Assembly: GCA_002868905.1 (NCBI GenBank)
Contig: PKUA01000078.1
Coordinates: 1 to 43,824 of the forward strand
Origin: Desulfuromonas sp.
GTDB lineage: Bacteria > Desulfobacterota > Desulfuromonadia > Desulfuromonadales > Geothermobacteraceae
DNA length: 43,824 bases
Direction: 5' to 3'
Below, one piece after another: positions 24,197 to 38,907 of this stretch; the first letter of the stretch is position 1; the number at the start of each line of letters is the position of its first letter. Both the position numbers and the translations under genes were made by a program. The notes under the pieces were generated by a model. It worked only from the letters and a program-made list of their open reading frames with translations. It was not told where the DNA came from and did no database searches.

Positions 24197-25582
24197 ATGA
24201 GCAACGACAAACCGTGGGCCGGACGCTTCACCCAAGCGACAGACAAGTTCGTGGAAGAATTCACCGCCTCCATCACTTTCGACCAGCGGATGTACCGCTA
24301 TGACATCCAGGGCTCGATCGCCCACGCCCGGATGCTGGCACGGCAGGAGATCATCAGTTCGGAGGATGCCGACCAGATCGTCGCCGGCCTGGAGGCGATC
24401 CTGGCCGAGATCGAGGCGGGGAATTTCGAGTTCTCGGTCAGCCTCGAGGACATTCATATGAATATCGAGGCGCGCCTGATCGAGCGGATCGGCCCGGTCG
24501 GTGGCAAGCTGCATACCGCCCGCTCCCGCAACGACCAGGTGGCGCTCGACATCCGCCTCTACCTGCGCGATGAAGTGTCGTCGATCCTCGCCTACCTCGA
24601 CAAACTGCAGGAGGCGCTGCTCGACCAGGCCGAAAGGAACCTGACGGTGATCATGCCGGGCTATACCCACCTGCAGACCGCGCAGCCGGTGCTGTTCGCC
24701 CACCACATGCTCGCCTATTTCGAAATGTTCAAGCGTGACTCGGAACGGATGCAGGACCTGCGCAAGCGGTTCAACCTCCTCCCCCTCGGAGCGGGCGCCC
24801 TGGCAGGCACCACTTTCCCCATCGACCGGGAGTGGGTCGCCGAACAGCTCGGTTTTGACGGCGTCACCCGCAACAGCCTCGACTCTGTCTCGGACCGTGA
24901 TTTTGCCATCGAGTTCTGCGCTGCCGGGTCGATCCTGATGATGCACCTTTCCCGCTTCTCCGAGGAACTGGTGCTCTGGTCCTCGGCCGACTTCGACTTT
25001 ATCGAACTGACCGACGCCTTCTGCACCGGCAGCTCGATCATGCCGCAGAAGAAGAACCCGGATGTTCCGGAGCTGGTCCGGGGAAAGACCGGGCGGACCT
25101 ACGGCAACCTGGTCTCCCTGCTGACCCTGATGAAATCGCTGCCACTCGCCTACAACAAGGACATGCAGGAGGACAAGGAACCGCTGTTCGACACCATCGA
25201 CACGGTCAAGGGGTCATTGAAAATCTTCGCCGACATGATCGCCGAGATGCAGGTCAAAGCGGACACTCTTCGGACCGCAGCCGCTCGCGGCTTCTCGACC
25301 GCGACCGATGTCGCCGACTATGTCGTCCGCAAGGGGCTGCCGTTCCGCCAGGCGCACGAAGTGGTCGGCAAGACGGTCCGTTACTGCATCGAACAGAACA
25401 AGGATATTCCCGAACTGAGCCTGGACGAGTTTCGCCAGTTCTCCCCATTGATCGAAGCCGACATCTTCGACTACGTCACTTTGGACGCTTCGGTCAACGC
25501 GCGCACGGCGACCGGGGGAACCGCCCGGGTCGCCGTGGAACGGGAGATCGCCCGGGCCCGAGCCGAACGACAAGGACGATGA
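24197..25582 (+). CDS. argH: Argininosuccinate lyase
   Basis: ArgH splits argininosuccinate into arginine and fumarate, the last step of the pathway. The 461-residue protein belongs to the fumarase/aspartase superfamily and carries [34 protein letters not shown], and the signature [15 protein letters not shown] with the catalytic serine loop. The N-terminal [18 protein letters not shown] is typical. A GAGAGAG ribosome-binding site precedes the ATG. Its stop overlaps the start of the downstream lipoprotein by four bases. Confidence 0.98.
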
Positions 25583-32289: not shown

Positions 32290-33258
32290 ATGACACCGAA
32301 ATTCGTACCTACCGCCATCCTTCTGCTTCTGTTCTGCTGTCTGCCAGTTCTTGGCCAGGCAGAGGAACTGAGCCCCTTCACCAGCGACGGCTGCAGCCTG
32401 TTCCCGGACGGGACTGTCGAAGATCGCACCATGTGGTGCGACTGCTGCCTGACCCACGACGTCGCTTACTGGCAGGGAGGAACAGAAGAGGAACGGTTGG
32501 CGGCCGACGAAGGACTGCGCAATTGTGTGCTCAAAACAACCGGCAACGAAGCCCTGGCGACCGCCATGTTCCTCGGTGTCCGCGCCGGTGGCTCCCCCGC
32601 GTTCCCGACCTGGTATCGCTGGGGATACGGATGGCCGTACGGCCGCGGCTATCAGACACTCTCGGCTGCAGAGCAGAGAAATGTCCGGGAACAGCTCGGA
32701 CTCTACCTGCTGCAGCACCCGGACGGCTACTGCGCCGGCCGGGATCAGACAGTAGAATCAGGCGGCGAGCGCCCGACCACGTGGGCCACCCCTGTTCCGT
32801 CCGAACACCTCGACAACTTTTACCGGCTCGACGCCAAAGTCTACCGCGGTGCCCAACCGGACGAGGCAGGATTCGAAGAACTGCAGGACCGTGGCATCCG
32901 CAACATCCTGAGTTTTCGCGAGTATCACGCCGACCACCCGGAGAATCCTGCGGACTTCAAGCTTGACCGGGTCAAGATGGCGGCCGGTTCCATCACCACC
33001 GAGCAGGTTGTCGAATCACTCCGCATTATCAAACGAAGCGAAGGACCGGTCCTGCTCCATTGCTGGCACGGGTCGGACCGCACCGGCATGGTCAGCGCCA
33101 TGTACCGGATTGTCTTCCAGGGGTGGAGCAAAGAGGAGGCGATCGACGAGCTGGTTAACGGCGGCTATGGTCACCATGCCTGGCTTTACCGGAACATCCC
33201 CGAGTTTATCCGGGAGGCCGAGATTGAAGCGATCCGAACGAAGGTCCTGGCTCCCTAA
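32290..33258 (+). CDS. Secreted phospholipase A2-like and protein tyrosine phosphatase fusion
   Basis: The 322-residue protein has a signal peptide (hydrophobic 9-21, likely cleaved after GQA). The first part (about 25-150) carries DGCSLFPDGT and then CDCCLTHDVAYWQGG (50-64). Its CCxxHD arrangement, with Cys53, His56 and Asp57, resembles the catalytic helix of phospholipase A2. The second part (about 170-315) is a dual-specificity/tyrosine phosphatase: VYRGAQPDEAGFEEL, a loop Asp near FREYHADHPE, and the P-loop HCWHGSDRTG with Cys258 and Arg264. Both active sites look intact. A periplasmic or outer-membrane location is inferred. The phosphatase assignment is firm; the lipase-like one is by motif only. 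It may share a transcript with yjdM. Confidence 0.82.
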   Translation: MTPKFVPTAILLLLFCCLPVLGQAEELSPFTSDGCSLFPDGTVEDRTMWCDCCLTHDVAYWQGGTEEERLAADEGLRNCVLKTTGNEALATAMFLGVRAGGSPAFPTWYRWGYGWPYGRGYQTLSAAEQRNVREQLGLYLLQHPDGYCAGRDQTVESGGERPTTWATPVPSEHLDNFYRLDAKVYRGAQPDEAGFEELQDRGIRNILSFREYHADHPENPADFKLDRVKMAAGSITTEQVVESLRIIKRSEGPVLLHCWHGSDRTGMVSAMYRIVFQGWSKEEAIDELVNGGYGHHAWLYRNIPEFIREAEIEAIRTKVLAP

Positions 33259-33303
33259 TCGCCCATTCCTTGTTCTCCTAACCACCTCTGCTAAGCTTAA
33301 GGC

Positions 33304-33918
33304 ATGGAGACACTGGAAATCTTCTTCGATTATGTCTGACCATGGTGCTACTTCGGTGCGGTGCGCATCGAGCAATTACGCCGGGAATTCGACCTGACCC
33401 TGCAGCACACTGTCTTCCCGCTCCACCCCGAAACGCCCGCGGAAGGGATGGAGTTGGACGATCTGTTTGCCGGTCGCGGCTTCGACCTGGACGCCATGTT
33501 CCATCGCCTGCGCCAAGTCGCCGACGAGGTCGCACTCCCCCTCGGCAACAGAACCCGCACCTTCAACAGCCGCCGCGCCCAGGAACTCGGCAAGTGGGCC
33601 GAGCAGCAGGGACACGGAGACGCTTTCCGCAACGCAGTTTACCATGCCTATTTCGCCGAGGGACGCAACATCTCTGCAATTAATGAGCTGACCGGGATCG
33701 CCGCCGAAGTCGAACTGCCGCCTGTCGAGGCACGGGACGTCATCACGTCGGGTCGCTACACGGCAGAAGTCGATGCCGACTGGCAACGGGCTCGAAGCCT
33801 CGGCGTCACTGCCGTTCCGACCCTGCACTACCAGGGGAACTTGCTGGTCGGCTTTACCCCCTACTCGACCATGAAGAACCTCATAACTCGCAGTGGAAGT
33901 TGGGCCCGCGTCGATTGA
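33304..33918 (+). CDS. DsbA/FrnE-family oxidoreductase, probable selenoprotein (UPWC active site)
   Basis: The frame from ATG 33304 reads METLEIFFDYV, then TGA (33337-33339), then PWCYFGAVRIEQL and continues to a stop at 33918. DsbA/FrnE thioredoxin-fold proteins have DYVCPWCYFG at this point, so the TGA stands exactly where the nucleophilic cysteine should be. Read as selenocysteine the protein is 204 residues with U12-P-W-C15. The rest matches the family: an alpha-helical insertion, then SLGVTAVPTL with the cis-proline and NLLVGFTPYS. A SECIS-like hairpin follows the TGA. Selenocysteine DsbA-like proteins are known in related bacteria. A nonsense mutation is the alternative. The ribosome-binding site (AAGG) is very close to the ATG. 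Confidence 0.85.
33352..33372 (+). promoter_or_regulatory. SECIS-like hairpin downstream of in-frame TGA
   Basis: Bases 33352-33360 pair with 33364-33372 in nine consecutive pairs (two of them G-U) around a GUG loop (33361-33363). The loop begins 21 bases after the TGA and has G in its first position. This matches the general form of bacterial selenocysteine insertion elements bound by SelB: a stem placed within the coding sequence shortly after UGA with a guanine in a small apical loop. Confidence 0.7.
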
Positions 33919-34000: not shown

Positions 34001-34408
34001 ATGTCCATCACCTGGAATGAGAAACTGAGCGTCGGTCACGACCTGATCGATGATCAGCACAAGGAACTTTTCAAACGTTACGACAGCCTGATCGATGCCT
34101 GCAAGTCGGGGAAAGGGAAAGCAGAAATCCGCCCGATGCTCGACTTTCTGCTGGAGTATGTCAACCGGCACTTTGCCGAGGAAGAGCGCTTCATGCTGAG
34201 GCTCTCCTACCCCGACCGGGAAGAACACCTGCGCCAGCACCGCGAATTCCTCAACAAGGTCACGGAGGCCTCTGCCGAGCTCGATGAAAAGGGAGCGACC
34301 GTCAGTGTCGTAACTTCGATCAGTCACACGACGTTTAATTGGCTGATACGGCACGTCCGTCAGACCGATGTCGAACTCGGTCGCTTCATCGTGGGCCAGG
34401 CCGCCTGA
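34001..34408 (+). CDS. Bacteriohemerythrin
   Basis: The 135-residue protein is a four-helix bundle that binds oxygen at a di-iron site. All ligands are present: His20 in DDQHKELF, His57 and Glu61 in NRHFAEEE, His76 and His80 in HLRQHREF, and His118 and Asp123 in WLIRHVRQTD. The start MSITWNEKLSVGHDLIDDQH is typical. It has its own strong promoter. Single-domain hemerythrins are frequent in Geobacter-like bacteria, where they are thought to store, deliver or sense oxygen. Confidence 0.95.
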   Translation: MSITWNEKLSVGHDLIDDQHKELFKRYDSLIDACKSGKGKAEIRPMLDFLLEYVNRHFAEEERFMLRLSYPDREEHLRQHREFLNKVTEASAELDEKGATVSVVTSISHTTFNWLIRHVRQTDVELGRFIVGQAA

Positions 34409-37362: not shown

Positions 37363-38907
37363 ATGGACAGCAGTGACCCCGACCGCTGCAGCACCACGAC
37401 GCAAAGTCCGGAACAACGGATTCTGCTCTCCATTCTGGTTACAGCCCTGACCGCCCTCCTGTTCTCCCTGAGTCGGGTCAATTATCCTCTGTTTCACACT
37501 CTGGTCGAATTTGCCAGCATCAGTGTCTCCTTCACCCTGTTCAGCATCGGCTGGAACGCGCGTTATGTCACCCGTAACGACTCTTTCACCTTCCTGGCGA
37601 TCACGTTCTCGGCAGTTGGCGGTATTGAACTATGTCATCTTCTGACCTACAAAGGGATGGGGATTTTCCCAAACCTCAGCAGTGACATCCCGACCCAGTT
37701 CTGGATCGCATGTCGTTTTCTCGAATCGGTCAGTTTCCTGCTCGCCGCATTGCTGGTCGACCGCAAACTCCACATCAAGGCGGGAACCGTACTGTTCCTC
37801 GCCATTGCGGTCGCCGTCGCCACCGGACTGACGATCTGGCCATTCAGGATTTTTCCCCACTGTCTGGTCGAAGGGGCGGGGCTGACAGCGTTCAAGGTGT
37901 CCTGCGAGTACCTGGTCTGTTTCATATTTCTGTTCGCAGCTTTGGTCTTTCGGCGTAAAAAGGCCCATCTCGACCCACAGCTGCTGAAATTACTGACGGT
38001 CGCCATCAGTCTCAACATTGCCGCGGAGTTTGCCTTCACCCTCTACCGGGACGTCTACGGTCTCACCAATGTCCTCGGACATATCCTCAACCTGGCAGCG
38101 ACTGTCTTGGTTTACCGGGCGTTGGTCCTCGGTTCTCTCCGTCGACCCTATCGGACCCTGTTTCGCGACCTTGACCAGTCCCATCAGGCACTCGACCAGG
38201 AGCTCGAACAGCGGCGTCTGACCGAAGCGGAGCTGCGTGCCACCAATGACGAACTCGACACCTTTGTCCGGGCCGTATCCCACGATCTGCGCTCCCCGCT
38301 GACGTATGTCATCGGCTCGGCCCAGCTGCTCGGTTCCGAACTGAATGAGCGACTCAGCACCAGCGAGAAGACCCTGATCCAGGGGATCGAAGCCCAGGGA
38401 CAGTCCATGGTGAATATGCTCGAAGACCTGCTATCCCTCTCCAAGATCGGTCACCTGGAACAATCTCCTCAACCGATCTACACCCAGTGGCTGGCCGAAC
38501 GTGTCATCCGGGATCTGGGCGAAAATCCTGAAGGGAATATCAAGATCGACTCCATGCCGACCCTGGTCGCCCACGAAACCCAGATTTACCAACTGTTGCT
38601 GAACCTGGTCAAAAACGCGCTCACTTACGCAAAAGACAGCGCACGCCCCATCGAAGTCGGAGGGGACCGGCAAGACGGCGAGGCACAATTTTACGTCAGG
38701 GATTACGGGCCGGGGATTCCACTGGAGGAGCGGGAGAAGATATTCGAGGTTTTCCACCGGGTCGATCCCGACTCCGACATCCCCGGAACCGGGATCGGCC
38801 TCGCCACCGTTAAAAAGGTTGCCGACTTCTACCGGGGAAAAGCGTGGGTCGAGGAGACTCCGGGGGGCGGCGCAACCTTCCGGGTAACGTTGCAGGACGT
38901 CGGCTGA
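37363..38907 (+). CDS. MASE3-domain sensor histidine kinase
   Basis: The 514-residue kinase begins with a MASE3 membrane sensor (about 20-255): multiple helices, with NYPLFHTLVEFASISVSF, the HLLTYKGMGIF motif and PTQFWIACRFLESVSFL. A coiled coil (about 265-300) leads to HisKA, FVRAVSHDLRSPLTYV with His307, and HATPase_c with LLNLVKNALTYAKD, DYGPGIPLEE and GTGIGLATVKKV. No receiver gene is adjacent. GGAGGG lies six bases before the ATG. MASE3 ligands are unknown. The 260-base gap upstream holds no supported gene. Confidence 0.93.
   Translation: MDSSDPDRCSTTTQSPEQRILLSILVTALTALLFSLSRVNYPLFHTLVEFASISVSFTLFSIGWNARYVTRNDSFTFLAITFSAVGGIELCHLLTYKGMGIFPNLSSDIPTQFWIACRFLESVSFLLAALLVDRKLHIKAGTVLFLAIAVAVATGLTIWPFRIFPHCLVEGAGLTAFKVSCEYLVCFIFLFAALVFRRKKAHLDPQLLKLLTVAISLNIAAEFAFTLYRDVYGLTNVLGHILNLAATVLVYRALVLGSLRRPYRTLFRDLDQSHQALDQELEQRRLTEAELRATNDELDTFVRAVSHDLRSPLTYVIGSAQLLGSELNERLSTSEKTLIQGIEAQGQSMVNMLEDLLSLSKIGHLEQSPQPIYTQWLAERVIRDLGENPEGNIKIDSMPTLVAHETQIYQLLLNLVKNALTYAKDSARPIEVGGDRQDGEAQFYVRDYGPGIPLEEREKIFEVFHRVDPDSDIPGTGIGLATVKKVADFYRGKAWVEETPGGGATFRVTLQDVG

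Follow-up and report, generated by a model that had tools for sequence, protein, structure and literature searches.

The kind of selenoprotein to which the gene described here is a further member was published in 2005, when a Sargasso Sea paper placed nine DsbA-like selenoprotein sequences under COG2761 (PMC1088965). A 2006 survey names such a protein for Anaeromyxobacter dehalogenans, Desulfovibrio desulfuricans, and Desulfotomaculum reducens; its rows for three Geobacter species and Desulfuromonas acetoxidans name none (PMC1794560). Published representatives of the family include NIP15863.1 and Dde_1263. A 2007 paper gives a DsbA-like case at Dde_1263 (PMC1914089), 45 DsbA-like selenoproteins from 41 organisms were counted in a 2016 survey (PMC5029168), and the family is included in a 2022 review (PMC9312934). 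The 'DsbA-like protein form 1' of a 2026 review has the PF01323 domain and a UxxC motif, as does the protein here (PMC13188914).

FrnE of D. radiodurans (drFrnE) has been proposed to reduce disulfides in the cytoplasm, with its C-terminal CXXXXC motif aiding regeneration, and the frnE mutant shows greater sensitivity to cadmium and diamide (PMC8945050). The same source gives cd03024 as the CDD domain number of FrnE and considers that homologues without CXXXXC are regenerated differently, the FrnE proteins of D. maricopensis and S. roseofulvus also being without it (PMC8945050). As these two proteins lack the motif, CXXXXC does not define the FrnE family. In a Pseudomonas, overexpression of a dsbA/frnE-like gene resulted in higher allicin resistance (PMC7119367). 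Within the literature covered by our search, no Sec form appears under the name FrnE.

A predicted FrnE-type selenoprotein gene

The window, meaning the whole 43,824-nucleotide stretch of Desulfuromonas sp. DNA that was analyzed, contains a gene at 33304-33918 that, judging from sequence comparison and a structure model, we are highly confident encodes a FrnE-type selenoprotein. Compared by description, it resembles the DsbA-like family of COG2761, which we take to be the FrnE group, in its PF01323 domain, its UxxC motif, and an in-frame TGA with a hairpin behind it. Of the features that mark a selenoprotein of this family, the domain, a TGA at UxxC position 1 with Cys homologues, a SECIS-type stem-loop, and the Sec machinery were found here. 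The features of the locus, all on the forward (+) strand, are as follows.

32290..33258, +, upstream same-strand ORF of 322 aa, ending 45 bp before the selenoprotein gene
33304..33918, +, predicted FrnE-type DsbA-family selenoprotein gene, 204 aa, Sec at residue 12, stop TGA at 33916-33918
33337..33339, +, UGA predicted from codon conservation to be read as selenocysteine (Sec12, residue 1 of UPWC)
33346..33348, +, codon of Cys15, the proposed resolving residue and sole Cys of the protein (codon conservation, Cys listing)
33352..33372, +, bacterial SECIS-type hairpin with a conserved 7-bp core (33353-33359 / 33365-33371) and apical loop GUG (33361-33363)
33361..33363, +, GTG taken as start by the mechanical ORF call, identical with the hairpin apical loop (ORF list, fold)
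33817..33819, +, codon of Pro172, invariant in 38 aligned rows
34001..34408, +, downstream same-strand gene for a bacteriohemerythrin (NF033749, 110.8 bits, cut-off 84)

The frame that opens at ATG 33304 reads METLEIFFDYV-TGA-PWCYFG and continues to the TGA stop; the TGA at 33337-33339 is the sole other one in frame. Because an in-frame TAA lies one codon upstream, at 33298-33300, ATG 33304 is the earliest possible start. A first-pass annotation of this DNA had claimed a frame open on either side of the internal TGA, which the reading frame of 33304-33918 confirms, and had placed that TGA at the first Cys of a CPWC motif, which agrees with the reading TGA-PWC and with the Cys found at residue 12 in some relatives. 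It had also expected ordinary gene calling to begin at GTG 33361, and the ORF list indeed gives 33361..33918 with a GTG start and 185 aa. Mechanical calling of this selenoprotein drops the active site, and the start that it takes is the SECIS loop. This call is also what speaks for a real product that begins at the GTG and has no active site, for example an adaptor protein. We regard such a product as highly improbable, as D9, Y10, Sec/Cys12, P13, W14, C15, and Y16 are invariant in 38 aligned rows, the first strand of the structure model is formed by residues 3-8, and the GTG itself is the loop of the hairpin.

Protein family and predicted fold

The only Pfam match of the protein is DSBA (PF01323; 103 bits, cut-off 25.6), and NCBIfam has no family for it at an E value of 0.001. 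Its top sequence match in the PDB is D. radiodurans FrnE (phmmer, 9.2e-18), which is also the best fold match of the structure model (pLDDT 95.6) by both Foldseek and VIA-align; the latter ranks FrnE above SCO1869, HCCA isomerase, YjbH, kappa GST, and DsbM. The UPWC enzyme of the DsbA/FrnE family that the first-pass annotation had proposed thus stands as a FrnE assignment, by sequence and by predicted fold.

Comparison with individual structures points the same way. The three entries of D. radiodurans FrnE (DR_0659; 5cnw, 5cp1, and 5xwh) share the fold at VIA Z scores of 26.1 to 26.6 and rmsd values of 2.2 to 2.4, with 199 aligned residues and 27% identity (Z 26.6 for 5cnw), and the CPWC-type site of that protein matches UPWC here. 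In contrast to it, the protein described here has Sec in place of the first Cys, a single Cys besides, and no C-terminal CXXXXC pair, a motif that is present in many FrnE proteins but not in all; Sec12 and Cys15 are thus its only redox residues. SCO1869 of Streptomyces coelicolor (3gl5), a probable DsbA oxidoreductase, follows at Z 25.7 and 26% identity and has a CPWC site with Cys where the present protein has Sec. DsbM of Pseudomonas aeruginosa (5hfg, 5hfi), called a cytosolic disulfide reductase in its entry title, is more distant (Z 18.5, 19-20% identity).

Pro172 is by its position presumably the cis-proline of the thioredoxin fold. The stretch NSRxxQELGKWAE is invariant in the 38 aligned rows except for A92, which lies in the unspecified part, and it differs from the aligned FrnE; from these alignments, it may be a marker of the clade with UPWC sites. 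Two further DSBA matches occur in the same genome, on contigs C5 and C31, both without a TGA.

As read from the sequence by eye, no N-terminal extension precedes the first strand, which begins at residue 3, and a stop lies one codon before the ATG. Together with published predictions for FrnE, this makes the cytoplasm the probable location of the protein, in keeping with the first-pass annotation, which had inferred it from the missing signal peptide. A periplasmic DsbA, which would carry an N-terminal signal peptide, was rejected on the same reading of the sequence. In HCCA isomerase and kappa GST, a catalytic Ser takes the place of the first Cys. Identity with either enzyme was rejected as well, as Sec or Cys, and never Ser, occupies the site in 231/231 readable loci.

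Conservation of the TGA codon

Of 277 genomes of the class, 76 have a homologue (E <= 1e-10); a profile search that included sister subfamilies gave 83 of 395 sampled genomes of the phylum (E <= 1e-20). Among the five genomes of the family, the gene is confined to that of the window; given this count and that of the class, the gene is dispensable. On plasmids, 52 records matched, all below 60% identity, and several of the 15 listed are named 'DsbA family oxidoreductase'.

We compared 233 loci, two of which start behind the site of residue 12, leaving 231 readable. The locus sets share species, and the window's gene is present twice (L009, L194). The genome_contigs loci are the best 80 of 158 matches, and the 70 loci used from the phylum matches are made up of 30 and a further 40, most of the latter lower-scoring. 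At residue 12, TGA is found in 77 of the 82 readable class loci (window's gene included) and Cys in the other 5; the corresponding counts are 79 and 1 among the 80 genome_contigs loci and 209 and 22 among all 231. Loci named Geobacter argillaceus, Pelotalea chapellei, and Geomonas limicola are among those with the TGA form. Cys in relatives at this position was a check proposed by the first-pass annotation, and these 22 loci provide it. At residue 15, a Cys codon is present in 82/82 class and 80/80 genome_contigs loci (162/162). This pattern indicates that the UGA at 33337-33339 is very probably a codon for selenocysteine.

It is conceivable that the TGA is a sequencing error or a recent pseudogene, that is, a broken TGC or TGT, from which it is one base away, and Cys homologues do exist. 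This explanation is very unlikely, as the TGA is conserved across the phylum at the frequency given above, the Cys15 codon is kept throughout, the frame is open to its end, and the hairpin behind the TGA is conserved.

Sister subfamilies with UPFC or UPYC sites also have an in-frame TGA (L227, L229-L232, L234, L235, L238, L239, L242, L247, L248, L250-L252, and L254).

A SECIS-type hairpin behind the TGA

The stem of the hairpin starts 12-13 nt behind the UGA, within the coding sequence. With the TGA numbered 1-3, its core consists of 7 pairs between positions 17-23 and 29-35, closed by a small apical loop. A stem-loop directly 3' of the UGA with a G in a small apical loop corresponds to the bacterial SECIS as defined in PMC1088965. 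A comparison with Rfam gave no SECIS family and one chance-level match, on the other strand (E 1.9). Single-sequence folding gives the window's hairpin a z score of -0.93, short of significance, and among its own synonymous shuffles 8% pair equally well; the case for the hairpin therefore rests on comparison.

Across 115 distinct sequences, the stem has a mean of 7.13 of 8 pairs, compared with 4.82 under synonymous-codon shuffles that leave the protein unchanged, and the top family mean among 200 such shuffles is 5.01. Pairing in the core extends to 845 of 882 cells over 126 distinct sequences, whereas 500 deals of the 3' letters reach a maximum of 791. Sliding the register by one to three bases lowers the pairing from 6.7/7 to 1.4-3.4/7. 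Compensatory changes are seen in several pairs, among them 19:33 (A-T 58, G-C 55, T-A 3) and 22:30 (A-T 96, G-C 17, T-A 1). The Cys homologues, in 21 distinct sequences that are mostly distant, have 3.9/7 core pairs; within the UPWC clade, the mean is 5.2/7 for Cys (6 rows, 4 to 7) versus 6.7/7 for Sec (119 rows).

In L250 and L254, the main register has 3/7 pairs, yet the stretch folds at about -20 kcal/mol; the hairpin seems to be placed in another register in these two.

Selenocysteine machinery

The window's genome (3.30 Mb, 84 contigs) has a tRNA-Sec on contig C80 at 25021-25112 (72.3 bits, cut-off 47) and, on contig C51, selA (618.2 bits), selB (390.8 bits), and selD (355.7 bits), each above its curated cut-off. 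A search of the genome for selA, selB, selC, and selD had been suggested as a check in the first-pass annotation, and its outcome is positive. The selD, selB, and selA genes adjoin on one strand (G000:C51:30291-34842; L128, L010, and L018), and a single in-frame TGA occurs within selD.

That the TGA is instead decoded as a residue other than Sec, either as Trp by near-cognate read-through or under a reassigned code, would leave the frame open just as well. We give this next to no weight, since Cys is the sole residue at the site in relatives that lack the TGA, the genome has the Sec machinery, and the hairpin is conserved beyond what the protein itself constrains. A general reassignment of the code is further argued against because the same gene ends in TGA. 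Decoding of the UGA at 33337-33339 as selenocysteine would proceed through recoding by SelB and tRNA-Sec, helped by the SECIS hairpin.

In the class, selA was found in 233 of 277 genomes and in 68 of the 76 with a homologue; as selA is so common there, its co-occurrence with the gene is weak evidence. The remaining 8 of the 76 gave no selA match. Of these eight, G193 carries both selB and, at contig bases 37-130, a tRNA-Sec, G199 has selB close to a contig start, with tRNA-Sec not found, G068 has tRNA-Sec, and G078 has tRNA-Sec and a partial selB at a contig start. Searches for selA, selB, and tRNA-Sec found none of them in G058, G063, and G065, which are 63-81% complete. Two genomes with the TGA form are rated more complete: G217 (L047; 96%), the last of the eight, has no selA, no tRNA-Sec, and no selB over the cut-off, and G468 (L223; 100%) was searched for selA and tRNA-Sec, neither of which was found. 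The lack of detected machinery in G217 and G468 may reflect an assembly gap or loss of the machinery.

Proposed function and genomic neighborhood

We consider it reasonably likely that the protein serves as a cytoplasmic disulfide reductase. In the proposed cycle, the selenolate of Sec12 would attack a disulfide of a protein or a small thiol, Cys15 would resolve the mixed selenenylsulfide, and the resulting Sec-Cys bond would be re-reduced by thioredoxin or a low-molecular-weight thiol system. Recycling by such a system is proposed because the C-terminal CXXXXC pair of D. radiodurans FrnE is missing. In the cell, it would likely repair thiols of the cytoplasm during disulfide, metal, or electrophile stress.

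The same Sec-FrnE might follow another chemistry. It might serve as an oxidase or disulfide isomerase, or it might resemble HCCA isomerase and kappa GST, which have the same fold (VIA Z 20.0-21.7), and be an isomerase or transferase that depends on glutathione. This is the less likely course, as the protein keeps a two-residue UXXC redox site, in which Cys15 is present in all 162 loci, and the nearest relative in both sequence and fold is FrnE. For the disulfide reductase that we prefer, no conserved neighbor that would point to a substrate emerged around the window's gene and the 80 genome_contigs loci.

To look for a conserved operon partner, we grouped the ORFs of these 81 flank sets into clusters and inspected the 25 widest. 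The top two represent the downstream portion of the gene itself and an antisense ORF that overlies it. The third (20 members in 16/81 sets), which includes the window's histidine kinase at 37363, varies in distance and strand, and the remaining inspected clusters reach at most 7 sets, the number for a quinone-oxidoreductase-like gene named by eye; no cluster was accepted as a partner. The nearest neighbor lies on the same strand within 150 bp in 26/76 cases downstream and 29/76 upstream, and these neighbors are too varied for inference. In the upstream ORF of the window (32290..33258), a phosphatase domain is confined to residues 175-287; its translation may begin further downstream than called, or its N-terminal half may be an unmatched domain. 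This ORF is absent from the recurrent neighbors of relatives in the flank clustering.

Sec and Cys forms in the UPWC clade

After a redundancy filter, 140 Sec and 18 Cys rows entered a careful tree (158 rows, rooted on three Cys rows), on which changes were counted by the Sankoff method under four cost schemes. The Sec/Cys states need ten changes (bootstrap 5-95% range, 10-10). With a gain costing 1, 2, or 4 relative to a loss, these resolve into one gain and nine losses; at 0.5, the lowest gain cost among the schemes, there are seven gains and five losses. Four Sec-to-Cys losses within the UPWC clade are found under all four schemes: L221 with L226, L181, L180 with L182, and L043.

The fork joining the whole UPWC clade, which comprises 119 Sec and 6 Cys rows, has support of 84/67. 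L221 and L226 hang on a branch 1.03 long; its support is 100/100, and that of the fork enclosing it is 99/88. The forks that nest L180 and L182 among Sec rows have support of 94/48 and 98/57, and a fork of 98/95 encloses them. Among the rows flagged for long branches, L186 and L242 fall outside the clade and L255 and L256 belong to the outgroup; the long row L225 is inside.

The genomes of the six Cys rows in the clade have selA in five cases and selB in the sixth. Sec and Cys copies occur together in G199 (C3 and C59; estimated contamination, 1%), G198 (C279 and C408; 7%), and G259 (C199 and C192; 6%). In G245, where only a Cys copy was found, selA and tRNA-Sec are kept, and selA is also kept in G649 and G311. 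From these observations we lean, by a little, toward a history in which Sec is ancestral and preferred in the UPWC clade and reverted to Cys four times, mostly with the machinery kept, partly in second copies, and with the hairpin weakening afterward.

Table 1 of the 2006 survey records no Sec-to-Cys and one Cys-to-Sec event for the DsbA-like family (4 sequences), the meaning of its columns being taken from the totals of 15 and 33 in the text (PMC1794560). That survey counts 15 Sec-to-Cys events in four families; organisms that contain selenoproteins harbor 11 of the resulting Cys forms, and some of the forms retain remnant hairpins (PMC1794560). The 2026 review describes the Sec-to-Cys change as rare and documented mainly for FdhA and SelD (PMC13188914), and the literature covered by our search holds no report of Sec-to-Cys reversions in the DsbA-like/FrnE family. 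The clade offers a natural matched set of Sec and Cys homologues, some sharing one genome, that bears on why bacteria keep or drop selenium in a cytoplasmic disulfide enzyme.

The Cys copy on contig C59 of G199 (L180), which stands beside a Sec copy, keeps 7/7 core pairs of the hairpin, and its minimum-energy fold differs; the retained pairs would fit a recent reversion.
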